Shown piece after piece: positions 585 to 12,684 of a stretch of DNA of 12,684 nt (position 1 is its first letter; each line of letters opens with the position of its first letter). A model generated the notes under the pieces. The model made no database searches. It saw only the letters and a list, made by a program, of their open reading frames with translations, and was not told the origin of the DNA. The stretch comes from Xanthobacteraceae bacterium. Lineage in GTDB: Bacteria > Pseudomonadota > Alphaproteobacteria > Rhizobiales > Xanthobacteraceae. Location of the stretch: contig JASHRR010001272.1 of NCBI GenBank assembly GCA_030037185.1, forward strand, positions 1-12,684, written 5' to 3'. The translations under genes were made by a program, and so were the position numbers.

Positions 585-2303
585 ATGCACTCGCACCATC
601 ATTATTCGCTGCAACGCCTGCTGCTCGTCGCCGGCGCCGTCGTCGCCACCACGCCCAGCCTCGCCGCTGACGTGACGGCCGAGCGGCTCGCCAATCCCGA
701 GCCCGGCAATTGGCTGATGAACCACCGCACCTACGATTCTCAGCGCTATTCGCCACTCGACAAGATCAACAAGGGCAATGTCAAGTCACTCAGGCTCGCC
801 TACGCGGTCGCCATCGGGGGCACGTCCGCGAACGAGAACCTCGAATCAACCCCGCTCGCGGAAGACGGCTACCTCTACATCGTCGATCAATGGGGCGTGC
901 TCTACAAGATCGATGCGCGTTCGGGCGACATGGGCCGGATCGTGTGGCGCATGGACCCTGGGCAGGAGAAGGTACCGCTGGCTAATCGCGGTGCGGCACT
1001 GTGGGGTAATCTTGTTATCAGCGTCGCCAACTATCCGGCGCGGGTCATCTCCACCAACAAGGAGACCGGGAAGGTGGCGTGGGAGGCGAATCTCAGCGAT
1101 GGTCAGGCCGATCTGCAGCTCACCGCCGCCCCGCTCGCCGTGAAGGACAAAATTATCGTCGGTGCCGCTGGCGGCGATCAAGGAGTCCGGGATTTCATAG
1201 CCGCACTCGACGGCGCAACCGGCAAGCTGCTGTGGCGCAAATACACCATACCAGCCCCCGGCGAGCCCGGTTCCGAGACCTGGAAGGACAACAACAACGC
1301 CTGGCAGACCGGCGGCGGCGCCATGTGGGTCACCGGTTCCTACGATGTTGCCAGCAACCAGGTGCTGTGGGGTACCGGGAATCCGGTGCCGATGTACAAC
1401 CCCTTCTACCGCCCCGGCGACAACCTTTACACCAACAGTGTGATCTCCTGGGACCCTGACACCGGGAAGATGAACTGGTACCACCAGTACGTCCCGGGCG
1501 ACATGTGGGACTATGATGCCGCCGGCACCCACATCCTGATCGACGGACAGATCGCCGGCCAGCCGCACAAGCTCGTCACACATTCGGCGCGCAACGGTTT
1601 CCTCTACGCGTTCGAACGTACCAACGGACAGGCCTTGCTGGCCAAGCCCTACATGGAGGCGATCAACTGGACCAAGGGCATCGATCAGAAGACGGGCCTG
1701 CCGATCGATTACGATCCGAAGAGGGACATACAGGTCTATTCGGGCCTGCAAAATCAGACAATGACGGACCGCACCAAGAGGCTGTGCCCATCGCATGAGG
1801 GCGGCAACAACTATTGGTCGGCGTCATACAGCCAAAGGACGCGGCTTCTCTACATTCCGTCGCGGCCGACATGCAACGAAATGACCATGACCCCCGATCA
1901 GCTCAGGAACGCGACCGGGGCCATGCTGGGCGGCGGCATCAGGCTACTCGAGCAGACCGAATCCGAGGTCGTGGTCGCCGACCCGTTCACGGGCGAGGTG
2001 AAGAACAGGGTACGCTCTTCCTATCCAAACTTCAGTGCTGCGCTGACAACGGCTGGCGGCCTTCTATTCACGGGCTTGGGCGACGGCACATTCATGGCCT
2101 ACGACGACGTGAGCCTCGAGCCGCTGTGGAAGATCAACGTGGGGGTGGGCATCAATGCTCCGCCGATGACCTTCGAGGCTGGAGGTAGACAATACCTCGC
2201 GATCATGACCGGCCTGAGCCGTGTTTCGAAGCTCCGGATCACGCTGACCCCCGAGCTTCGCGACATCCGAAACCAGACCATGCTGTTCGTGTTCGGATTG
2301 TGA
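585..2303 (+). CDS. PQQ-dependent methanol/ethanol-type alcohol dehydrogenase, exported, DYD motif
   Basis: This gene encodes a 572-residue quinoprotein of the eight-bladed propeller family, which oxidises alcohols in the periplasm using PQQ. The ATG at 585 is chosen over a TTG at 531 because GGGAGG lies 5 bases upstream and a Sec signal peptide follows (hydrophobic LLLVAGAVVATTPSLAA, cleavage near residue 28). Family landmarks in order are NRGAALW, GGDQGVRD, GGGAMWVTGSYD, GTGNPVP, WDYD, RNGFLYAF and GGLLFTGLGDG. By alignment from memory, the metal ligands are D198 (usually Glu), N266, the catalytic D309 and the extra carboxylate D311. D311 marks lanthanide-dependent members such as XoxF and PedH. 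The adjacent Cys-Cys pair seen in methanol dehydrogenase is absent, and there is no cytochrome c domain. The substrate and electron acceptor cannot be told, and no PQQ synthesis genes are nearby. Confidence 0.92.
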   Translation: MHSHHHYSLQRLLLVAGAVVATTPSLAADVTAERLANPEPGNWLMNHRTYDSQRYSPLDKINKGNVKSLRLAYAVAIGGTSANENLESTPLAEDGYLYIVDQWGVLYKIDARSGDMGRIVWRMDPGQEKVPLANRGAALWGNLVISVANYPARVISTNKETGKVAWEANLSDGQADLQLTAAPLAVKDKIIVGAAGGDQGVRDFIAALDGATGKLLWRKYTIPAPGEPGSETWKDNNNAWQTGGGAMWVTGSYDVASNQVLWGTGNPVPMYNPFYRPGDNLYTNSVISWDPDTGKMNWYHQYVPGDMWDYDAAGTHILIDGQIAGQPHKLVTHSARNGFLYAFERTNGQALLAKPYMEAINWTKGIDQKTGLPIDYDPKRDIQVYSGLQNQTMTDRTKRLCPSHEGGNNYWSASYSQRTRLLYIPSRPTCNEMTMTPDQLRNATGAMLGGGIRLLEQTESEVVVADPFTGEVKNRVRSSYPNFSAALTTAGGLLFTGLGDGTFMAYDDVSLEPLWKINVGVGINAPPMTFEAGGRQYLAIMTGLSRVSKLRITLTPELRDIRNQTMLFVFGL

Positions 2304-2315
2304 TTCTCATTCACC

Positions 2316-2333
2316 TCTCCCCGAATGGGGAGA
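2316..2333 (+). terminator. hairpin after the PQQ dehydrogenase
   Basis: TCTCCCC (2316-2322), loop GAAT, GGGGAGA (2327-2333) forms a perfect 7-bp stem 13 bases after the stop codon. No T-run follows, so Rho-independent strength is doubtful. The sequence continues with GC-rich motifs (GGCGGCGAGCGCG, then CGGGTGAGG), like the palindromic intergenic elements I associate with Bradyrhizobium genomes. It may therefore be both a terminator and a dispersed palindrome. Confidence 0.45.
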
Positions 2334-2432
2334 TCGGCGGCGAGCGCGCGGCGACACGACGGGTGAGGAACGTCATCTCGCGCCGAAATATCGAAAGCTT
2401 GTGGCGGCCTCATCGGGCGCGATGTCTGTTGC

Positions 2433-2470
2433 TGGCCCACCTCGGCCGACTTGCGCGTTGCACAAAGTGG
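2433..2470 (+). repeat. 38-base repeat, copy 2 (downstream of PQQ dehydrogenase)
   Basis: This copy differs from 282-319 at three positions and has the same orientation. The similarity stops abruptly on both sides. The copies are about 2.15 kb apart with the PQQ dehydrogenase between them. No transposase, terminal inverted repeats or target duplication accompany them, so they are better read as members of a dispersed repeat family than as element ends. Confidence 0.7.
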
Positions 2471-3297
2471 CTCGCGTGGCCTCATGTAGGTGACCACCGA
2501 TCCGCCGCCCGATGAGTCCAAACAACGGCTTTTGGCCCGACCCTACCGACTTGGGACGGTGCAGGAAGTCGGCAGCGCACAAATTGGATGGCCCATTGAG
2601 TTGCGTTGCGTCCGCGATGACAGCTGCTGTGGAGAGTGGGGAAAACGGGCATACTTGATGGAGAGATCGGTGTTTGGCTTGCCAGAGTCATCGACGCAGC
2701 GTTATCGTTCGCACATCTACAGTATGATATATCTACCAACCGGTTCGGCAGTCGCGCGCGAGGTTGCTGGCTCGGCCGAGAGATAGGTCCTGCTGCAGGT
2801 GCTAGGAGGGTCGTCTTGGCCAGGCGGCCCTTCTTCCTTTCCAGACTGCCGTTCGCGCCGACGACACAGCCGTTCGTGGCCCGACCCGGACCGAATGGTC
2901 GGCGTCAATCATCGACGGCTCATTGAGTATCGGCGGACCCATTGCGGTCGTTCACCTGCGACCCCGGTCGCGCCCCCGACAATGCAAGACACCCAAGCTT
3001 ATGTCTCGATTATCTTCCCGTGGTTCGGCTCACTGCTGCGCGGGTTGGTACGGCGAAAGCAAGCTTTCCGGCTTCATACCGCCGGACCAGCGGCACGAGC
3101 AGCGGGCCATTTCGTCACTCACCCGGCCAGTCCACAGCACCCGTAAAGCGCCAGCTTGCTCACGCCACACTTTGCAGCGACCGCCGACAAGGGACATGCT
3201 GCTCGTCACGTTAACGCCGACGAAGTGATCAGACGCAGAAACGAAGGACGTAGAACCCGCGGCGGAGCAACGGGACTCGCAAACATGTGGCCGTCCC

Positions 3298-3480
3298 TTA
3301 CGACGAGCGCGCTGCGCCGCGGCGCCATACCGCCATCAGCTTCGGCGCGTATTGCTTAAACTCCGCCGCAGCAGCCTCTCGACAGCCTCGGCCTCAGTCG
3401 CAGCGTCGGCCTCGCCAAGCCATGTCTGCCGGCGAGCGAGCTTGTAGATGGTCCACCGAGACGGCGGCGGAGGCGAAGCA
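3298..3480 (-). pseudogene. frameshifted small conserved gene (WTIYKLA...TWLGEADA type)
   Basis: On the minus strand one frame reads RWTIYKLARRQTWLGEADA followed by ATEAEAVER, then runs into LLRRSLSNTRRS and a stop. Near 3373-3382 a shift of one base restores a sensible continuation, EAAAAEFKQYAPKLMAVWRR, ending at TAA (3298-3300). The joined product resembles small rhizobial proteins of about 60-70 residues that I recall having the form WxIYxLAxKxxWLGxVEAxxExEAIEKAAxEF. A single missing A in GAGAAGGCT would explain the break. I cannot identify a clear start: ATGs near 3485-3492 are in another frame. The function is unknown. The tRNA gene lies just upstream on the same strand. Confidence 0.5.
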
Positions 3481-3540
3481 TTGCCATGCCGTGTCCGGTA
3501 CGATTCGTTACCTATGTGTCCAGGCCGGACTGCTGAATGC

Positions 3541-3616
3541 TGGTGCCGCAAGAGGGATTCGAACCCCCGACCCCATCATTACGAATGATGTGCTCTACCG
3601 ACTGAGCTATTGCGGC
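3541..3616 (-). tRNA. tRNA-Thr (anticodon CGT)
   Basis: The minus strand folds into a complete 76-nt cloverleaf. The acceptor stem is GCCGCAA/TTGCGGC. The D stem is GCTC/GAGC. The anticodon stem is CATCA/TGATG, with loop TTCGTAA giving anticodon CGT (reads ACG, threonine). The variable loop is GGGTC, and the T arm is GGGGG-TTCGAAT-CCCTC with one G-U pair. The discriminator is A and CCA is encoded. No second copy of its 3' end is present in the window, so there is no sign that it served as an integration site here. Confidence 0.96.
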
Positions 3617-3977: not shown

Positions 3978-4892
3978 TTAGAAATCAAGCTTGTCCGCAA
4001 TGGGGACCGCAGAGTGCGTTCCGGGATACCACATGATGTTGTCGGCACAGACAAGTTCCAGCCGTTCGTCGAGGGCGCGCCGAAGCGTCACCGTCGCCGA
4101 CCACGGCATCGTGAAGGCGCCTTTATCTTCAACGGTGATTTGGATTTGCAACCCCTTGCCCTTGTAGTTGGGATCGACAGCCGGTCCATTATCAGGATTC
4201 GCGAATTGGAAATTCTCGGTTGCATCCCGTGCTATTGCTTCCATCGTGGTGTCGTAATCAATCAGCCGATACCGTTCCACCACGTGGAGAGCCTCGGTGA
4301 ACGGCGTGCCATACCAGTCGATCATGGAGAACGGGCCGATCTTGATTCGTATGGTATCGACCACCAGCGTATCGCCTTCGTAATGACCGACGGAATCTCC
4401 ATACCAGGACGGCGAAACCTGCGCCGGATGGGGCTGGTTCAGGCGAACCTGGCGGAATTGATGATCGAAGGGATAAAGAATGGTGACCTTGTCGGGCTGC
4501 TGGATCAGCTGCATTCCATAATTGCCAAAAACGAAGGGCACCTGCTCGGGCCAACACTGATTGCGCGGTGTCGGATAGCCCTTGCCGGCTAACGAAATCT
4601 CGCCGAACTTTTTCACGACTTCCGCCGCCCAGGGCTGCAAGATTGGATTCGTGTAATCGCCGACCAGTTGGGTGCCATTGCCCACGCCGGCTTGGGGTCC
4701 TGTGAGCCGGCGTGACCTGTTCCTCACAGGACCCGGCCCCGATAGCGGCAGCTCCAAGCCGTTCAAGGATGCGTGGTTCCAGGAGCCGGAGAAATCCGGG
4801 ATCGATGGCGCTGCCGTCTGCCCAACAGCAGCAGACGTAGCAGCCGTAGCGCTCAATGTGATAAGCAATAGTAAGTCCCGTTGAACTTTCAT
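3978..4892 (-). CDS. secreted conserved protein of unknown function
   Basis: This 304-residue protein starts at the ATG ending at 4892, preceded by GGAGG with 5-base spacing; a longer in-frame start at 5033 lacks such support. The N-terminus is a Sec signal peptide (MKVQRDLLLLITLSATAATS, cleavage probably near GQTAA). The mature part begins PDFSGSW and contains LVGDYTNPILQPWAAEVVKK, NQCWPEQVPFVFGNYGMQ, SWYGDSVGHYEGDTLVVDT, YGTPFTEALHVVERYRL and CADNIMWYPG. I associate this pattern with uncharacterised exported proteins found in many copies in Bradyrhizobium, but I know no function for them. No catalytic motif stands out. It lies downstream of the nitrile hydratase operon on the same strand, 396 bases away, with its own sigma-54-like promoter. 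It is therefore probably a separate transcript that may share regulation. Confidence 0.85.
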   Translation of the reverse strand: MKVQRDLLLLITLSATAATSAAVGQTAAPSIPDFSGSWNHASLNGLELPLSGPGPVRNRSRRLTGPQAGVGNGTQLVGDYTNPILQPWAAEVVKKFGEISLAGKGYPTPRNQCWPEQVPFVFGNYGMQLIQQPDKVTILYPFDHQFRQVRLNQPHPAQVSPSWYGDSVGHYEGDTLVVDTIRIKIGPFSMIDWYGTPFTEALHVVERYRLIDYDTTMEAIARDATENFQFANPDNGPAVDPNYKGKGLQIQITVEDKGAFTMPWSATVTLRRALDERLELVCADNIMWYPGTHSAVPIADKLDF

Positions 4893-5288
4893 AGCAGCCT
4901 CCGACGCACTTCCCGCGCTGACCTGACCAGCATATAATGTGCCAGGAGGACCAACGGCGCCGAGCCGATCCCCCAGCGGAAAGTCGTCCCTTGATCGGAT
5001 TCTTGACGCGGTCTTGCTGAGGAACCGCGGCAATCACTGTTTTGGAAACCAGTCTTCCCCGATTTTGGGAGCCCAGAACCTACCAAATCCCCTCCGATGC
5101 AAGAGCCAGTCGCCTTTGGGATGGAAGGAAACCGCTCGCCCGGTACGCGCTGCGCAAGCAGCGCCGCCAGTATCAAGACCGCATCAAGCACCTACCGAGC
5201 CCTGGCGAGCGACCGATTCGCACGCTCTTCGAAAATGCGAATAAATCTATGAACGCAGTGGTCAATGACCCGCGCCGGGTAAGCAGTC
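4893..5288. other. intergenic region between the nitrile hydratase operon and the secreted-protein gene
   Basis: These 396 bases contain the sigma-54-like promoter at 4929-4945 and two small dyads. CGCGGT (5007-5012) pairs with ACCGCG (5024-5029), about 90-110 bases upstream of the predicted start of transcription. ACCCG/CGGGT (5268-5280) has a 3-base loop just after the operon's last stop codon and could be a weak terminator. Open frames on both strands here are mutually overlapping and unrecognisable. Confidence 0.4.
4929..4945 (-). promoter_or_regulatory. candidate sigma-54 (RpoN) promoter of the secreted-protein gene
   Basis: The minus strand reads CTGGCACATTATATGCT. The GG and GC doublets are separated by exactly 10 bases, as sigma-54 requires, and TGGCAC plus TGCT match the -24/-12 consensus with one T-to-A change in TTGC. 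The predicted transcript would start near 4918, giving a 26-base leader that contains the GGAGG ribosome site. Confidence 0.45.
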
Positions 5289-5645
5289 TCAGGGCTCTGC
5301 AGCCGGGCCAATACCCGCGGTGGCTGGCGGACGAGCTACAAGGTCTTCGGCGGTAATCAGCCCTTGTTCGACAAGGACGCGTTCAAGCGCGGTAAGCCAG
5401 CGCTCGTAGTAGCTCCATGACGGGTCATCGAGCCGGTGCGAATCTTCCCATTCGCCGATCGCGGCGATCAGCTTCAGTCGGAAGTCCTCCCAGTCGAAAT
5501 ATCCGGCCTTGGAAAGCGCAATCGCAACCCCGAAGACTTGACGCTGCCATGCTTGAGCAAAGCAGAGCTTGCCGTCGAGCCGCGGCGGGGAGTCGCCTTG
5601 CCCCAGCATGCTCGCCAGCGCGAAATGCTCAAACCGCGTTTGCAT
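5289..5645 (-). CDS. nitrile hydratase accessory protein (p14K-like, beta-subunit N-terminus homologue)
   Basis: This 118-residue protein belongs to the nitrile hydratase accessory family, related to the N-terminal part of the beta subunit. Visible hallmarks are ARLDGK-like PRLDGKLCFAQAWQRQVFG, IALSKAGYFDWEDFRLKL and SYYERWLTALERVLVEQGL. In studied cobalt enzymes the homologous p14K/NhlE partners an alpha subunit and delivers cobalt by swapping subunits with the apo-enzyme. The ATG ending at 5645 is used; a TTG directly before it is an alternative, and GAGGAG serves either. It is the last gene of the operon, 47-50 bases after the alpha subunit. The beta-alpha-accessory order matches that known from Rhodococcus rhodochrous J1 cobalt nitrile hydratases. 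No signal peptide is present, so cobalt loading should be cytoplasmic. Confidence 0.88.
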   Translation of the reverse strand: MQTRFEHFALASMLGQGDSPPRLDGKLCFAQAWQRQVFGVAIALSKAGYFDWEDFRLKLIAAIGEWEDSHRLDDPSWSYYERWLTALERVLVEQGLITAEDLVARPPATAGIGPAAEP

Positions 5646-5695
5646 CAATCGGACTCCTCGGGCGCGACGTCCATGATGCGACAGGACCGCTCCAT

Positions 5696-6454
5696 TCAGA
5701 CCCGCGCTACTCCCATCATCCCCTCCGGCGTGACGAGCCTGGCGAGATCCGCCTCGCTCATCCCGTCGGTTCCCGCTGGCCGTTCCGGCACGACGAACCA
5801 GCGTATTTGTGCGCTGCTGTCCCAGGTCTTGATCTCCACCGTCGAGGGGATGTCGAGCCCGAATTCCTTCAGTACCGCACGCGGCTCGCGCGCCGCGCGG
5901 GCCCGGAAGGTCGGATCCTTATACCAATAGGGCGGAAGCCCGAGCACCGGCCAGGGGTAACACGAACACAGCGTACAAATGACGAGATTGTGGACGGTCG
6001 ACGAATTGGCCACGGCGCGCATGTGCTCGCCCTCGGCGCCCGCCATGCCCTTTGGCAGTTGCATTTCGGCGATCGCCGCCGGTGTATCCTCGACCAGATG
6101 CTGCTTGAAAGCGGGATCTATCCAAGCACGTGCGACCACCTTGGCGCCGTTGAAAGGCCCCATTTGGGTCTCGAAGAAGGACAGCACACTGTCGACGCTG
6201 CTGCCCGTGATGATTCCCTTCTCGACGAGGAGCGCCTCCAACGCCAACGCGCGGGCCGCGTTCTTGGCTTCGCGATCCGGCGGATAGTCGAAGCGCTGCT
6301 GCGCACGCGCAGGTTCGACGGAGATCGTGGTGCCAAACGCCGGTGCCGCCGCAGCGGCTGTGCTTGCGAAGAGGAGGTTGCGTCGATTGAATCGAGGATT
6401 TGCGTCGGCGACCTTCGCTGACTCCGGCCCTGACGTTTCGAGGTCTGCACTCAT
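5696..6454 (-). CDS. nitrile hydratase alpha subunit, cobalt type, with Tat signal peptide
   Basis: This catalytic subunit converts nitriles to amides. It has 252 residues against about 200-210 usual for the family. Metal ligands lie in CTLCSC, C160, C163 and C165; Thr at the second position is typical of cobalt (iron enzymes have Ser). LFFETQMGPFNGAKVVARAW-like sequence and YPWPVLGLPPYWYKDPTFRARA flank it. The extra N-terminus is a classic twin-arginine signal: RFNRRNLLF at 21-29, hydrophobic alanine-rich stretch to about 46, then PARA (48-51) as the likely cleavage site. The start is firm: AAGGA lies 7 bases upstream and the next Met is residue 98. Tat moves folded proteins, which fits metal loading before export. 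The signal is unusual for this family, whose studied members are cytoplasmic. Thiocyanate hydrolase gamma is a relative but less likely, given the full-length beta partner. Confidence 0.93.
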   Translation of the reverse strand: MSADLETSGPESAKVADANPRFNRRNLLFASTAAAAAPAFGTTISVEPARAQQRFDYPPDREAKNAARALALEALLVEKGIITGSSVDSVLSFFETQMGPFNGAKVVARAWIDPAFKQHLVEDTPAAIAEMQLPKGMAGAEGEHMRAVANSSTVHNLVICTLCSCYPWPVLGLPPYWYKDPTFRARAAREPRAVLKEFGLDIPSTVEIKTWDSSAQIRWFVVPERPAGTDGMSEADLARLVTPEGMMGVARV

Positions 6455-6493
6455 GCCATCATCCTTGCGTCTTCATAGCCGGCCGCGACGGGT

Positions 6494-7213
6494 TCAGCTG
6501 GCCTTGTCGAGGTAAGCTTCGTAGAGGTCGGCATAAATCGTGACATTCTTTTCGGTATTGCCCGGCCAAATATCCTCAGCGCTGAAGCGAACGTCGTAGA
6601 CGGGCATGGCAGGGCCTATTCCGTCGGGCCCGGTCGATGTCAGATAAGCGTAGTTGCCCGGATAGACCGTAGCGATAATGCCCATGTGATTGCGCAGATA
6701 CCCTGGGAGTCGTGTGTGCTCGATGGTCGGGACATTCTTGACCAGGACTTTGTCGCCAACGCCGAAGCGGGGCTTGATGGTAGCCTGGCGCTTGGGCGAG
6801 TCGCCCTCTACCAGATAGGTGATAATGCGTTGATCGATCGCCGGATCGCCGCCGTTGACCGATGCCGAGGCGGAATTGCTCAGGATTTGCTCGGTGCGTG
6901 CGGCGAGCTCAGCTTCAGTGATGTAGCCCTTCTCGACGAAGTAACCGGAGATCCCGCCGAGCCACTTCTCGTAATAGCGGTATTTGAAATAATCGAACGG
7001 GTTGAGCGACTCGGCACCTTTGCGCAGGTCTGCCCAGGTCCAGACCGTGTTGAACTTGCTGGGCGTCGCAGGTAGTGGCAGCTGCGAACTGAGTGCCATC
7101 ATCGCGACGTGAATGCCGAAGATGCGCTTCTCCCAGGGCTCGACGAAGACGCGCTTCTCGAATGTCACGGGCCCGAGCCCTTCGAGGCCTCCAAGGGTAT
7201 GCTGCAGTTTCAT
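6494..7213 (-). CDS. nitrile hydratase beta subunit
   Basis: This 239-residue structural and active-site partner of the alpha subunit begins MKLQHTLGGLEGLGPV, matching the family's N-terminal HDxGGxxGxGPV pattern. It continues with EPWEKRIFGIHVAM and YRYYEKWLGGISGYFVEKGYI in the helical half. The C-terminal barrel shows FGVGDKVLVKN, TRLPGYLRNHMGIIATV and YDVRFSAEDIWPG. Length is normal for the family. AGGGG lies 5 bases before the ATG. It starts 27 bases after the GTPase stop and ends 39 bases before the alpha subunit, so the genes are co-transcribed. It has no signal peptide. If the alpha subunit is exported by Tat, beta would have to travel bound to it, as known for some Tat-exported hydrogenases; otherwise the complex stays inside. 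Confidence 0.93.
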   Translation of the reverse strand: MKLQHTLGGLEGLGPVTFEKRVFVEPWEKRIFGIHVAMMALSSQLPLPATPSKFNTVWTWADLRKGAESLNPFDYFKYRYYEKWLGGISGYFVEKGYITEAELAARTEQILSNSASASVNGGDPAIDQRIITYLVEGDSPKRQATIKPRFGVGDKVLVKNVPTIEHTRLPGYLRNHMGIIATVYPGNYAYLTSTGPDGIGPAMPVYDVRFSAEDIWPGNTEKNVTIYADLYEAYLDKAS

Positions 7214-7240: not shown

Positions 7241-8236
7241 TCAGGAATTGGCAACCGGCTCATTAGGCAACCGCCGCAACGCGCCGACACGGCACTCGAG
7301 GAATCCGTCGCGTAGCGCTGCCTCTTCGAGATTTCTTCCGATGAAAACGAGTTCATTGAAACGGGGCTCGTTTATCTTCCATGGCTTGCCAGGTCGCCCG
7401 TCGAGAGTCATGTGGACCCCGTGAAAAACGAACCGCCGGGGTTCCTCCGAAAGATCGATGATTCCCTTGACCCGAAGCAGGTCCTTACCCCGCGCCTGGA
7501 CGAGCGCGTTGATCCAGCGGCTGAACCGCGTGACATCGATTGTCCCGCGTTCGCGAAGTGATACGCAGGCGATGTCGAGGTCGTGCTGATGGGTGCTGTC
7601 GAGGAGCAGTTCAGGGTCAAGTTTCAATGCATTCCGGAGATCGAACGCTCGCACGTCAAGCACCGCGGCAACGTCGATGCAGCAGCTCACCGTGCGATGT
7701 ATACGAGCGAGTGCGTTGAGGGATCGCAACAACCGACAACGCTCCGCAACATCCGGTTCCGAGACGAGATCGCTCTTGTTAAGGAGGATCACATCCGCGA
7801 ATGCAACCTGCTCGCGCGCCTGTTCGTTGTGCAATTGATCGACAATATGACGAGCGTCGGCGATCGCCACGATCGCGTCGAGCTCCGTGTGCGTTTTCAG
7901 CGTCTCGTCGAGAATAAATGATTGAATGATCGGCGCCGGATCCGCAAGGCCCGACGTCTCGATGACAATGCGGTCAATGGTTCGACCGCTGGCGATCAAG
8001 TTATTGACGGCGCGCGACAAATCTCCGCGCACGGTGCAGCAAATGCATCCGTTGTTCAGTTCAAGGATGTCTTCCTGAACATCGATTACGAGTTGGCCAT
8101 CGATGCCGACCTCGCCAAACTCGTTGACGATAACGGCAATCTTTTCCGTACCAGCAGTGGACAGGATGTGATTGAGCAAGGTGGTCTTTCCCGACCCGAG
8201 AAATCCTGTCAACACAGTCGTGACGATCTTGGGCAC
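7241..8236 (-). CDS. COG0523 (CobW/P47K family) metal-chaperone GTPase
   Basis: This 331-residue G3E-family GTPase probably assists metal insertion into the nitrile hydratase. It shows Walker A GFLGSGKTT (11-19), the metal-binding CxCC motif GCICC (C64, C66, C67), ETSGLADP (93-100), NKSD (153-156) and a CobW C-terminal domain with KPWKINEPRFNELVFIG. Homologues (P47K, Nha3) are known activators of iron nitrile hydratases; here the alpha subunit is cobalt type. The start is GTG at 8236, because an in-frame TGA lies 12 bases upstream; the ribosome site is weak. It is first in the operon, transcribed from the sigma-54 site 46 bases upstream. A role in cobalamin synthesis is possible in principle but is not supported by neighbours. 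Confidence 0.9.
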   Translation of the reverse strand: MPKIVTTVLTGFLGSGKTTLLNHILSTAGTEKIAVIVNEFGEVGIDGQLVIDVQEDILELNNGCICCTVRGDLSRAVNNLIASGRTIDRIVIETSGLADPAPIIQSFILDETLKTHTELDAIVAIADARHIVDQLHNEQAREQVAFADVILLNKSDLVSEPDVAERCRLLRSLNALARIHRTVSCCIDVAAVLDVRAFDLRNALKLDPELLLDSTHQHDLDIACVSLRERGTIDVTRFSRWINALVQARGKDLLRVKGIIDLSEEPRRFVFHGVHMTLDGRPGKPWKINEPRFNELVFIGRNLEEAALRDGFLECRVGALRRLPNEPVANS

Positions 8237-8587: not shown

Positions 8588-10159
8588 ATGAGCATCGGAT
8601 TTTGTGGTGTCCCTCATCGCCTGATTTTACTGACCGCCATATTTGGAATCTCCATCACGTTACCGGCAGCTTCGCAGTCCGCCGCCACCTTCGACGTCGT
8701 CGAGGCGACCATCGATGGCATTCAAGCAGCGATGCGATCGGGCGGATTGACCTGCACCAAACTCGTTCAAAGCTACCTCGATCGGATTGCAGCGTATGAT
8801 CAGTCTGGGCCTAAACTGAACGCTGTGCAGAACATCAACCCTCTTGCCCTGCGGCAAGCCGCCAATGTCGATGCCAAATTCACTACTCCGGGCGAGATCG
8901 CGCCACTTCACTGCGTCCCGGTCTTGCTGAAGGATCAAATCGAAACTGATTTCATGCCAACCACCTATGGTTCGGCGATGTTCAAGACGTTCGTGCCCAG
9001 GCGCAACGCTACCGTAGTGGAGCGGCTGCAGAGAGCCGGCGCCATCATCCTGGCAAAGACGAACATGGGAGAGTTCGCGGCGGGGGGGTCTGGCTCCGCC
9101 TTCGGTGACTGCCACAATGCCTATGATCCCGCTTATTTCGCTAGCGGGTCGTCCTGCGGCACCGGCATCGGTGTGGCGGCCAGCTACGGGGCGGTCGGAA
9201 TTGGCGAGGACACCGGAGGTTCGGTACGCGGACCGGCTTCGCACGAAAGCCTCGTCGGGCTGCGCCCAACAACCCCGCTGGTGAGCCGTTTTGGGATGAT
9301 GCCGGCATCACCGACGCGAGACACGATCGGACCGATTACACGCACCGTCAGGGATGCGGCTCTCGTGCTTGACGCAATCGCCGGCTACGACCCGAAGGAT
9401 CCTGTCACGGCAGCAAGTTATCGCCGAACTCCGGAATCCTACACGGCATTCCTACAGGACAACGGACTGCGTGGCATGCGTTTTGGCGTTATACGTCAGC
9501 CAATGGATAAGGACACCGATACCAATGCAGCGGACTACAAGGAGGTCCGCGCGATGATCGATCGAGTGGCCGGCGTGCTCAGGATGCGAGGCGCCGAGGT
9601 TATCGATCCGATCGAAATACCAAATTTGCTCCAGTTGCTCGAAGCGAGCGGCACTGGACGAACAAACATCTACGAAACCGAGCAGTCGATTAACGACTAT
9701 CTCGACCAACATCCCGACGCTCCCATTCGGACATTTAAGGCGATTGCCACCTCGCCGCTGCTGATCGAGGCACGGCGTCAGGCGATGATCTATGCGGTGG
9801 GGCATTTGCCGACTGAGCCGGCGTTCATGCTACAGCGTCAAACGCAGGAAGCCCTGCGCACGCAGGTCCTCAAAGTGATAGCAGATAACCGTCTCGACGC
9901 TTTCATCTATGCGACGTTCGACCATGCACCAGCGCGATTGCCGCGCTCTACCCGAGGCAACAACCGTCTATTGGCCCCGATCCTTGGCTATCCGGCCCTC
10001 GCCATGCCGGGAGGTTTTTCAAGCGACGGCCTCCCTCTGGGATTCGAATTTCTCGGCCTACCGTTCGCCGAGGGAACGCTGTTCAAAGCGGCGTACGATT
10101 ACGAGCAGTCTACAAAAATTCGCCGGCCGCCCGCCGTCACGCCGGCACTGACGAGGTGA
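8588..10159 (+). CDS. amidase-signature family amidase with Sec signal peptide
   Basis: This 523-residue enzyme probably hydrolyses amides to carboxylic acid and ammonia, the step after nitrile hydratase. The ATG at 8588 is preferred over one at 8498: GGGAG lies 6 bases upstream and a signal peptide follows (RLILLTAIFGISITLPAAS, likely cleaved near residue 30). The Lys-Ser-Ser triad is complete: K115 in VLLKDQ, cis-Ser S188 in SGSSCGTG and nucleophile S212 in DTGGSVR. The 24-residue gap between the two serines equals that in FAAH and malonamidase E2. Cys190 replaces the usual Gly after the serine pair. It is transcribed away from the nitrile hydratase operon, so the link is by adjacency and matching chemistry. 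GatA is excluded by the signal peptide and by the absence of gatB and gatC. The real substrate is unknown. Confidence 0.92.
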   Translation: MSIGFCGVPHRLILLTAIFGISITLPAASQSAATFDVVEATIDGIQAAMRSGGLTCTKLVQSYLDRIAAYDQSGPKLNAVQNINPLALRQAANVDAKFTTPGEIAPLHCVPVLLKDQIETDFMPTTYGSAMFKTFVPRRNATVVERLQRAGAIILAKTNMGEFAAGGSGSAFGDCHNAYDPAYFASGSSCGTGIGVAASYGAVGIGEDTGGSVRGPASHESLVGLRPTTPLVSRFGMMPASPTRDTIGPITRTVRDAALVLDAIAGYDPKDPVTAASYRRTPESYTAFLQDNGLRGMRFGVIRQPMDKDTDTNAADYKEVRAMIDRVAGVLRMRGAEVIDPIEIPNLLQLLEASGTGRTNIYETEQSINDYLDQHPDAPIRTFKAIATSPLLIEARRQAMIYAVGHLPTEPAFMLQRQTQEALRTQVLKVIADNRLDAFIYATFDHAPARLPRSTRGNNRLLAPILGYPALAMPGGFSSDGLPLGFEFLGLPFAEGTLFKAAYDYEQSTKIRRPPAVTPALTR

Positions 10160-10471: not shown

Positions 10472-12684
10472 TCAGTGATCGTTGTCCACTTTATGATTCT
10501 GGTCTAGTGCCATCTTCGGATATGGCTGAGATCCCATCATGCCCTTCCAAAGCACCCTGTTGAACCGCGCTGTCGGAACGCGATCCGCATCCGAGAAGTC
10601 GAAAGCGGCCGTAACTCTCGCCCAGTATTTTGCGCTGTGCTTCGGCTTGACAATCGGCCCTTGCGCAAACCTCACAGCCTCATTCCCTTGCGCAAGCTGC
10701 AGCGTCGTCGTCAAGAGAACGCTCGAGGCTGCCGCCGTATAGCTCCAGGAGCCAAACGACTTGATGTCGAACACTTTTGACATCGGCCGCTGAAACGCCG
10801 TGTTCAAGTTGATGTGCGGCGTACCCAGCACGTCTTCAATGGTACGGAGCACATTGACCTGGCTGTAGTGGGTACTTACAACCGCACCCTTCTTTACATA
10901 CGGACCGACCACATAGGCTGTGGTGCGGTGCGAATCGACGTGGTCCGGACCATCCTGAGCGTCATCTTCCGTGATGAAGATCAGAGTATCGGCGGCATAC
11001 GGGCTGTGCGCGACGGCCTCGACCAGGCGACCGACAGCCAAGTCGTCGTCGGCCTGCTGCGCTTCCGGCGTGTTGACGCCTGCGAGCGCGGTGGAGAAGG
11101 ATCCCATGTGGTCGTGACTGACGCGAACCAGCGACAAGTTCGGCAGGTTGTAGTTGGCGAGGTAAATGTTGAACTCCCGCTTCCACTCGTTATAGCGCCA
11201 CAAATCCGGATAGTTTTGGTCGAAGCCGCGGAAGAAGAGGTCGGTCAGCGGGGCCAGGGAGGGCTTGAGCGGAGCGACCTGAATGATGTTGGCTGCGAAA
11301 GGATTAGATACCGGCGCTGCCTTCGTGCCGATGCTACCGACGTTATTTACGAGGGTCCCGTAGTTGCGAACGGTCCCGCCGGCCTGCAGCACGGCACCAA
11401 AGATATAGCCTTCCTGGGTGCCGAACGGCGCCTCGGAGGAGGCGTGGTTACTGGTGCCAGGCAACAAGTTGGCAGTACCGCCTGGCAGGTTCGCCGACCC
11501 ATTGCTGTAATTGGTGGTTCCGGCAAGTCCGGTCGCGGCATCGCGCTGAGCGGTGGTATCCCAGTTCACCGCCACATTGCGGTTCGATCCCTCGGGGCCA
11601 TAGGACAAACCGCGGTTGACGAATGCGTAATTGAGCCGTTCCGTAATCGTTTCTCCGTTGGTGATACGACCTTGCAATGCCCAGGACTGCCCGTTCATGC
11701 TGCTGTCGCTGGGGTCCGTGAAATTATCGAGCGTAACGAAATTCTTCGCCAGCGCGTGAAAGTTTGGCGTGATGGCCGAACCGAATTGGGTTAATGCAGG
11801 CTTGCCGTTGGAACCGTTGTTCAGGTCGCCCAGAATCTGGTCGAACGTGCGATTTTCCTTGATGACGTAGATCACATGCTTGATCCGCTGACGCAGAAAC
11901 CGCATGACCTCGTCCTCGACCGGTTCGGCGCTGTACATGTTGTTCTGGGCGACCGTGCGCGTCAGTGCCGGCAAGTCGGCTGAGGTCGGCACTGGCGCGC
12001 TGAGCAGGGAGGCGCGTTCTAATTGGAATTGATACTCCTTCGACGCGGCGGCGGCGGCCGCAGCGTTACCGCCCGGAGAGGTGATGTTGGTGATGAAAGC
12101 CGCACTGGCGGACAAGTCATCGGGATTCGGACCGGTGACGCTCTTGCCGTTGACGATGTAGATCCAGGTTCCATCGGCGCTGAACGTGACGTCATGCGGC
12201 TCGTAGGCCGTCGGGATGAGCCCGGCGACTTTGTTGGCGACCGGGCCGGTCAGGGGTATCACGGCGATCGAGTTCGCGCCGGCATTGACGGCATAGAGCG
12301 ATGTGCCATCCGGTGAGATCGTCACCGCAAAGGTCGCTGCGCCGGTGTAACGGGGCGTTTCACCACCAAAATCCTCGGCATGGTCCTCGTCACCAGCCAG
12401 AACACCGGCCAGAGCCCGCGCGTCGATCTTGTTACTGACTGCGTTCGTCGAAGTGTCGATAACTGCGATCTGGTCGGCGTTATCTTGCGCCACGTAGAGC
12501 TTTGACTGCGATGGATCGAGCGTCATCCCGAGGGCATTACCGTCGAGCTTTATCCGCTGGATCAAATGGGCCTCGGTGGGGGAGGAAATGTCGATAGCAA
12601 TGACTTCACGATCGCGATCGGACGACACATAGGCGATGCCATTGCCCTTTACGACCACCGCAAACCGCAAGGTGCCGCCGGCCC
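10472..12684 (-). CDS. YncE-like propeller / alkaline-phosphatase-fold phosphoesterase, 5' end missing
   Basis: The frame is still open at the right edge, so the start, and any signal peptide, lie outside the window; a TTG at 12670 is only an internal Leu codon. About 736 C-terminal residues are visible. The first third is a YVTN/YncE-type beta-propeller (repeats such as SKLYVAQDNADQIAVIDT, TSLYAVNAGANSIAVIP, TWIYIVNGKS). An alanine-rich linker leads to a phosphoesterase domain. ENRTFD (11840-11857) carries the likely nucleophile Thr. HDHMGSF, ITEDDAQDGPDHVDSHRT and NVLRTIEDVLG are typical of the phospholipase C/acid phosphatase AcpA group. This combination is known as bifunctional YncE/alkaline phosphatase family proteins, usually exported; the substrate is not established. 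It is convergent with the amidase and shows no tie to nitrile metabolism. Confidence 0.9.
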   Translation of the reverse strand, partial: AGGTLRFAVVVKGNGIAYVSSDRDREVIAIDISSPTEAHLIQRIKLDGNALGMTLDPSQSKLYVAQDNADQIAVIDTSTNAVSNKIDARALAGVLAGDEDHAEDFGGETPRYTGAATFAVTISPDGTSLYAVNAGANSIAVIPLTGPVANKVAGLIPTAYEPHDVTFSADGTWIYIVNGKSVTGPNPDDLSASAAFITNITSPGGNAAAAAAASKEYQFQLERASLLSAPVPTSADLPALTRTVAQNNMYSAEPVEDEVMRFLRQRIKHVIYVIKENRTFDQILGDLNNGSNGKPALTQFGSAITPNFHALAKNFVTLDNFTDPSDSSMNGQSWALQGRITNGETITERLNYAFVNRGLSYGPEGSNRNVAVNWDTTAQRDAATGLAGTTNYSNGSANLPGGTANLLPGTSNHASSEAPFGTQEGYIFGAVLQAGGTVRNYGTLVNNVGSIGTKAAPVSNPFAANIIQVAPLKPSLAPLTDLFFRGFDQNYPDLWRYNEWKREFNIYLANYNLPNLSLVRVSHDHMGSFSTALAGVNTPEAQQADDDLAVGRLVEAVAHSPYAADTLIFITEDDAQDGPDHVDSHRTTAYVVGPYVKKGAVVSTHYSQVNVLRTIEDVLGTPHINLNTAFQRPMSKVFDIKSFGSWSYTAAASSVLLTTTLQLAQGNEAVRFAQGPIVKPKHSAKYWARVTAAFDFSDADRVPTARFNRVLWKGMMGSQPYPKMALDQNHKVDNDH

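Follow-up and report, generated by a model that had tools for sequence, protein, structure and literature searches.

A conserved Tat-type signal peptide predicted on the alpha subunit of a cobalt nitrile hydratase

Nitrile hydratases and the export of folded complexes

Nitrile hydratase, which converts nitriles to amides, is of considerable industrial importance and has been known as an intracellular protein. The cobalt nitrile hydratases encoded in Azospirillum and Rhizobium genomes and those with solved structures, from Pseudonocardia, Bacillus/Geobacillus and Pseudomonas putida, share with the system described here the family, the metal-site motif, the beta subunit, the accessory protein and the gene order, but are extension-less and have no N-terminal Tat signal. 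The solved enzymes are the nearest relatives of known structure. In the literature searched, the coverage of which leaves most subscription journals outside, no exported natural nitrile hydratase was found.

The closest described precedents for the export that we propose come from other enzymes. The Tat system exports folded proteins and can carry along partners that have no signal of their own: according to the available portion of the source, in the Escherichia coli aldehyde oxidoreductase PaoABC and hydrogenase 2 (HybOC) one subunit bears the Tat signal and the cofactor-bearing partners do not, PaoB and PaoC being carried with PaoA, and HybC with HybO (PMC4273604). These are redox enzymes, whereas nitrile hydratase is a cobalt lyase whose export we infer here. 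The thiocyanate dehydrogenase of Thioalkalivibrio and its relatives likewise has a Tat signal, acts in the breakdown of a nitrogen compound and is encoded in a cluster with metal-handling genes, but it is copper-dependent and a different enzyme from nitrile hydratase; in the accessible parts of these studies, thiocyanate dehydrogenase is the Tat substrate, and the nitrile hydratase relative thiocyanate hydrolase is given no signal (PMC6504805, PMC5328954, PMC5744179). What is new about the present locus is the predicted location, the enzyme and the kind of export being already known.

An alpha subunit with an N-terminal extension

The window, i.e., the complete stretch of 12,684 nucleotides that was analyzed, encodes a nitrile hydratase alpha subunit on the minus strand together with a beta subunit, an accessory protein and a CobW-type GTPase (Table 1). 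A preceding sequence-only reading had described an otherwise normal cobalt-type alpha subunit at this position, and both the coordinates, strand and frame and the identification are correct. The 252-residue protein scores 286.6 bits against TIGR01323 (nitrile hydratase alpha, cut-off 249.85) and matches PF02979 (E 6e-82), with the family match spanning residues 64-250; the score against the thiocyanate hydrolase gamma model is 165.3 bits, below the cut-off of that model (291.45). Residues 160-165 form the metal-site motif CTLCSC, the threonine of which we take to be the mark of the cobalt type. By family membership, the protein is predicted to hydrate nitriles with the help of bound cobalt. 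In a structure model of the protein (mean pLDDT 63.3), residues 1-57 have pLDDT values below 50 and are given no fold. A PDB search retrieved nitrile hydratase alpha and is uninformative on the extension.

Table 1. Features of the nitrile hydratase locus (positions in the window)
Feature	Position	Strand	Basis
Nitrile hydratase accessory protein, signal-less	5289..5648	-	TIGR03889, 74.7 bits (cut-off 46)
Nitrile hydratase alpha, cobalt type, with N-terminal predicted Tat signal, 252 aa	5696..6454	-	TIGR01323, PF02979, reading frame
Metal-site motif CTLCSC, residues 160-165	5960..5977	-	Sequence
Predicted Tat signal peptide, codons 1-51	6302..6454	-	RRNLL, Ala-rich stretch, AxA/Q, conservation in 63 members; PF10518, 17.3 bits (cut-off 22.7)
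Codons of twin arginines R24-R25	6380..6385	-	Invariant in 63/63 rows
AAGGA, Shine-Dalgarno-like, 7 nt ahead of ATG 6454	6462..6466	-	Sequence
Nitrile hydratase beta, signal-less, starts MKLQHTLGGLEGLG	6494..7213	-	TIGR03888, 224.9 bits (cut-off 152.2); N-terminus
CobW-type GTPase, signal-less	7241..8236	-	PF02492, PF07683
Amidase, Sec-like N-terminus MSIGFCGVPHRLILLTAIFGISITLPAASQS (by eye)	8588..10159	+	PF01425

The first 51 residues of the protein, MSADLETSGPESAKVADANPRFNRRNLLFASTAAAAAPAFGTTISVEPARA, are followed by a glutamine and are laid out on the plan of a Tat signal, with a polar start, a pair of arginines at positions 24-25 (in the form RRxLL), an uncharged alanine-rich stretch and the sequence PARA immediately before the glutamine. 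The predicted cut after A51 would leave an alpha subunit of 201 residues, and six extension-less homologues have 202-208. The start codon had been regarded as well supported, and this assessment holds: the Shine-Dalgarno-like AAGGA lies 7 nt in front of it, and between codons 1 and 70 ATG, GTG and TTG are all absent, so that a start further in, at the alpha body, would need an unusual start codon. When the 52 N-terminal residues were shuffled, 335 of 100,000 permutations satisfied our own rule for Tat signals (RRx[FGAVMLI][LITMVF], 13 consecutive uncharged residues and an AxA-type site); the conservation of the extension is stronger evidence for a signal than these odds.

A search scored on alpha residues 1-80 yielded 24 proteins. 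In an alignment of 23 of these with the window and locus L022, from a Hyphomicrobiales metagenome-assembled genome (MAG; G001), the arginine pair is present in all 25 rows; the remaining protein, P0024, looks frameshifted and was omitted. In a search with the full-length alpha subunit, 8000 proteins were scored and the best 120 listed. Our Tat rule was satisfied by 117 of the 124 collected homologues, the other seven being P0024 and six short proteins (P0117-P0119, P0122-P0124); because the homologue lists are ranked by likeness to an extension-bearing query, this proportion is not a measure of frequency. Among the homologues that have a long N-terminus ahead of the body, the RR motif is embedded in Tat-like surroundings in 117 of 118, and in the exception, the apparently frameshifted P0024, the motif sits further in.

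From these sequences we assembled a set of 63 rows, consisting of the window protein and 62 of the 117 proteins conforming to the rule, picked for diversity. The arginine pair, P38 and the alanine at position -1 are present in all 63; position -3 is occupied by alanine (58), valine (4) or isoleucine (1), and position +1 by glutamine in 46 rows. One row, P0114, has an arginine soon after the RR motif. The share of the most frequent residue per position is on average 37% in residues 1-20 and 89% in the body. Between the window and L022, a rough Nei-Gojobori estimate, with synonymous sites near saturation, gives dN 0.37 and dS 1.19 for the extension and dN 0.09 and dS 1.34 for the body, which indicates that the extension evolves as protein. 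The proposal that residues 1-51 constitute a complete Tat signal, with an arginine pair shared by alpha subunits that have the same extension, is thus borne out, and on sequence grounds we consider the predicted signal on the alpha subunit to be real and conserved.

The available profiles recognize this signal weakly. With the 21-position profile PF10518 (TAT_signal), listed at E values up to 10, 39 of the 63 members have a match, that of the window alpha being below the curated cut-off; TIGR02811 is listed for 37 of the 63 and TIGR01409 for 10, neither of them for the window alpha. None of ten extension-less alpha subunits (P0117, P0118, P0119, P0122, P0123 and five loci) has a PF10518 match listed. 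The weak Tat profile scores would fit an extension that is a cytoplasmic N-terminal arm for assembly or regulation rather than an export signal. We hold such an arm to be very unlikely, given that conservation falls on the residues that matter in a Tat signal and at a signal peptidase site, the others drifting, and that the region is given no fold in the model. Some RR signals are usable by Sec, in which case the alpha subunit would leave the cell unfolded and take up cobalt outside. Nevertheless, Sec has no requirement for the arginine pair that is invariant in the 63 rows, and the beta subunit, the accessory protein and the GTPase are all signal-less, which renders this route highly improbable. 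Export through Tat, in turn, is strongly suggested by the sequences.

Some Tat substrates stay membrane-bound, and the translocase might recognize the signal of the alpha subunit without any cleavage, or the complex might stay at the inner membrane, resulting in a membrane-held enzyme that faces the periplasm. A comparable situation is described in the available part of a study of recombinant P. putida nitrile hydratase, in which pelB was uncut on the alpha subunit, but pelB is a Sec signal and the protein is that of a foreign host (PMC3680314). The invariant alanine at -1 and the alanine, valine or isoleucine at -3 are what is expected under selection for cleavage, and retention in the membrane appears unlikely to us. 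The same recombinant alpha subunit, with pelB uncleaved, had activity comparable to the wild type (PMC3680314, same portion), so that an N-terminal extension need not hinder maturation.

Distribution and phylogeny of the extension

Among 78 homologous loci on genome contigs, the upstream frames of which were read by eye, the extension was found in one, L022 from G001; some of the extension-less loci are 81% identical in the body. Extension-less homologues are thus common (77 of 78 loci), and the Tat signal is the trait of one lineage, not a feature of nitrile hydratases in general. The sequence-only reading had tied its case to homologues having both the arginine pair and the extension; the first part stands, since those with the extension keep the pair, but the second does not, most homologues on genome contigs being devoid of the extension. 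Upstream frames were also read by eye for the 30 loci from a search of G001's family and for 44 further loci, and genome matches without a locus were judged solely by the position at which the match starts. On this basis, no further in-frame signal besides that of L022 in G001 was detected in one genome of the genus, 391 of the family, 397 of the order and 385 of the class and in 298 relatives (overlapping sets). An RR pattern was flagged at four of the 44 loci and each was set aside: in L113, L127 and L156 the arginines lie upstream of a likelier start, and in L124 no alanine-rich stretch comes after them. An uncharged run does follow the arginines in L127, the dismissal of which is a judgement. 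The viral contigs searched contained no relative.

According to the source tags, most of the extension-bearing sequences are metagenome proteins. The clade is easily overlooked because automatic annotation designates its members as plain nitrile hydratases and, in one case, has perhaps trimmed the signal. This case is P0119, a protein from a Xanthobacteraceae MAG that is annotated with 202 residues and no signal, and whose body is identical to those of the signal-bearing P0052, P0053 and P0055; automatic start calling may have removed the N-terminus.

For phylogenetic analysis, 64 rows with the Tat signal were combined with 80 others, after the exclusion of sequences with less than 60% identity, stops or short alignments and of copies of an earlier row (P0118 and P0119 were left out as duplicates or near-duplicates). 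In the resulting tree, 62 of the 64 Tat rows form one clade with support of 98/93, and P0106 and P0112 are placed just outside this main clade in the best tree. A single Tat clade is not rejected (p-AU 0.442), and one change is obtained in 47% of the bootstrap trees. In P0019 (60% identity overall), the extension and the first part resemble the Tat clade and the remaining body does so far less, indicating either recombination or an assembly chimera.

The MAG that encodes the Tat-type enzyme of L022 also encodes a second alpha subunit (L139), which is extension-less, 46% identical in the body and has a histidine-rich start. Many of the more distant alphaproteobacterial alpha subunits (L087-L089, L095-L109, L117-L122, L139 and others) start with a run rich in histidine and aspartate, e.g., MSDDHDHEHHHH, which possibly binds metal.

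Operon partners and a putative extracytoplasmic route

On the minus strand, the genes are arranged in the order CobW-type GTPase, beta, alpha and accessory protein, and the gaps of 27 and 39 nt among the first three suggest one operon. The beta subunit had been described as lacking a signal, and the wider comparison agrees: among the best 120 beta homologues listed, none of the 116 scorable ones has an RR motif ahead of the body, and the four without a located body motif show no signal by eye. Seven have 7 to 27 additional residues that include no hydrophobic stretch. Eleven Tat-type alpha subunits could be matched to a listed beta subunit through contigs of equal size, from which we infer the same contig (alpha/beta pairs P0013/P0131, P0033/P0139, P0067/P0154, P0087/P0189, P0090/P0195, P0093/P0183, P0095/P0151, P0097/P0181, P0107/P0185, P0115/P0157 and P0121/P0184), and all 11 paired beta subunits start with MKLQHY. 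In L022, the beta gene is split over two overlapping frames, 5094-5456 and 5201-5842 (L022:5094-5842), caused by either an error in sequencing or a genuine frameshift.

Some activity has been described for alpha subunits in isolation, and with a signal present on alpha only, this subunit might be exported without beta, which would stay inside or have another role. This possibility is quite unlikely in our judgement, considering that alpha and beta are encoded in one apparent operon, that 11 Tat-type alpha subunits have matching beta subunits on what appear to be the same contigs, and that in the E. coli precedent, as reported in the available portion of the source, the export of PaoA stopped when either partner was missing (PMC4273604).

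Joint export of alpha and beta had also been seen as the explanation for the presence of metal chaperones without signals in the same operon. This argument does not hold: the same order of GTPase, beta, alpha and accessory genes is annotated on Azospirillum plasmids, where the matches to the alpha subunit do not start until query residue 47 or 54, so that the signal-less chaperones add nothing in favor of export. The signal-less GTPase and accessory protein fit metal loading before export, but this is equally true of the Azospirillum operons. As to their functions, the available parts of two studies report that the activator of Fe-type nitrile hydratases is Nha3, a COG0523 GTPase (PMC7689651), and that the accessory protein P14K of the P. 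putida enzyme binds the alpha subunit (PMC3680314). TatC is present in G001, the sole species genome found with the signal.

Starting from what is directly seen, that is, the anatomy of the extension, its clade-wide conservation and a beta subunit without a signal, we consider it probable that the Tat signal of the alpha subunit is functional and that this subunit receives its cobalt in the cytoplasm, is exported folded together with beta and is cut after A51 to become part of a periplasmic enzyme. Under this scheme, the accessory protein, perhaps along with the CobW-type GTPase, would help put cobalt into alpha in the cytoplasm, and the loaded alpha would then pair with beta. The folded, metal-loaded complex would exit via the Tat translocase, with the signal-less beta subunit as a hitchhiker, and cleavage by signal peptidase I would yield an alpha subunit of normal length. 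The periplasmic enzyme would make the amide, from which a separately exported amidase could give acid and ammonia.

The candidate for this last step is encoded divergently from the operon, at a distance of 351 nt (Table 1). A role of the amidase as a general partner of the Tat-type enzyme was rejected: the best match in G001 is only 35% identical, and among the eight homologues in 198 genomes of the family a signal-like start was found in one, L147. An extracytoplasmic route from nitrile via amide to acid is plausible, with the amidase link suggested by this window alone. On balance, we slightly favor the broader view that a mostly uncultured clade near Hyphomicrobiales possesses a periplasmic, Tat-exported cobalt nitrile hydratase with beta as a hitchhiker and an exported amidase, such that an extracytoplasmic nitrile-to-acid path would keep toxic nitriles out and only the products would be imported. 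If export is true, a non-redox cobalt enzyme joins the Tat hitchhikers, soil bacteria gain a new site of nitrile breakdown, and a natural design becomes available for a periplasmic enzyme in whole-cell catalysis; moreover, because Tat carries folded proteins, the place of cobalt loading would become testable.

The window contains several other genes. The product of 585-2303 (+) is a PQQ-dehydrogenase-like protein with a Sec-like start, which scores 452.6 bits against TIGR03075 (cut-off 480.05) and 380.5 bits against TIGR04528 (acido-empty-quinoprotein), below the cut-off of 650. It is followed by about 1.2 kb without a recognized gene (2304-3616), adjacent to a tRNA-Thr(CGT) at 3541-3616; this region is possibly an old insertion site. 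The protein encoded at 3978-4892 (-) has a Sec-like start, MKVQRDLLLLITLSATAATSAAVG, and no Pfam or NCBIfam match, and the one encoded at 10472-12682 (-), which runs off the window end, combines YncE-like repeats with a phosphoesterase domain.
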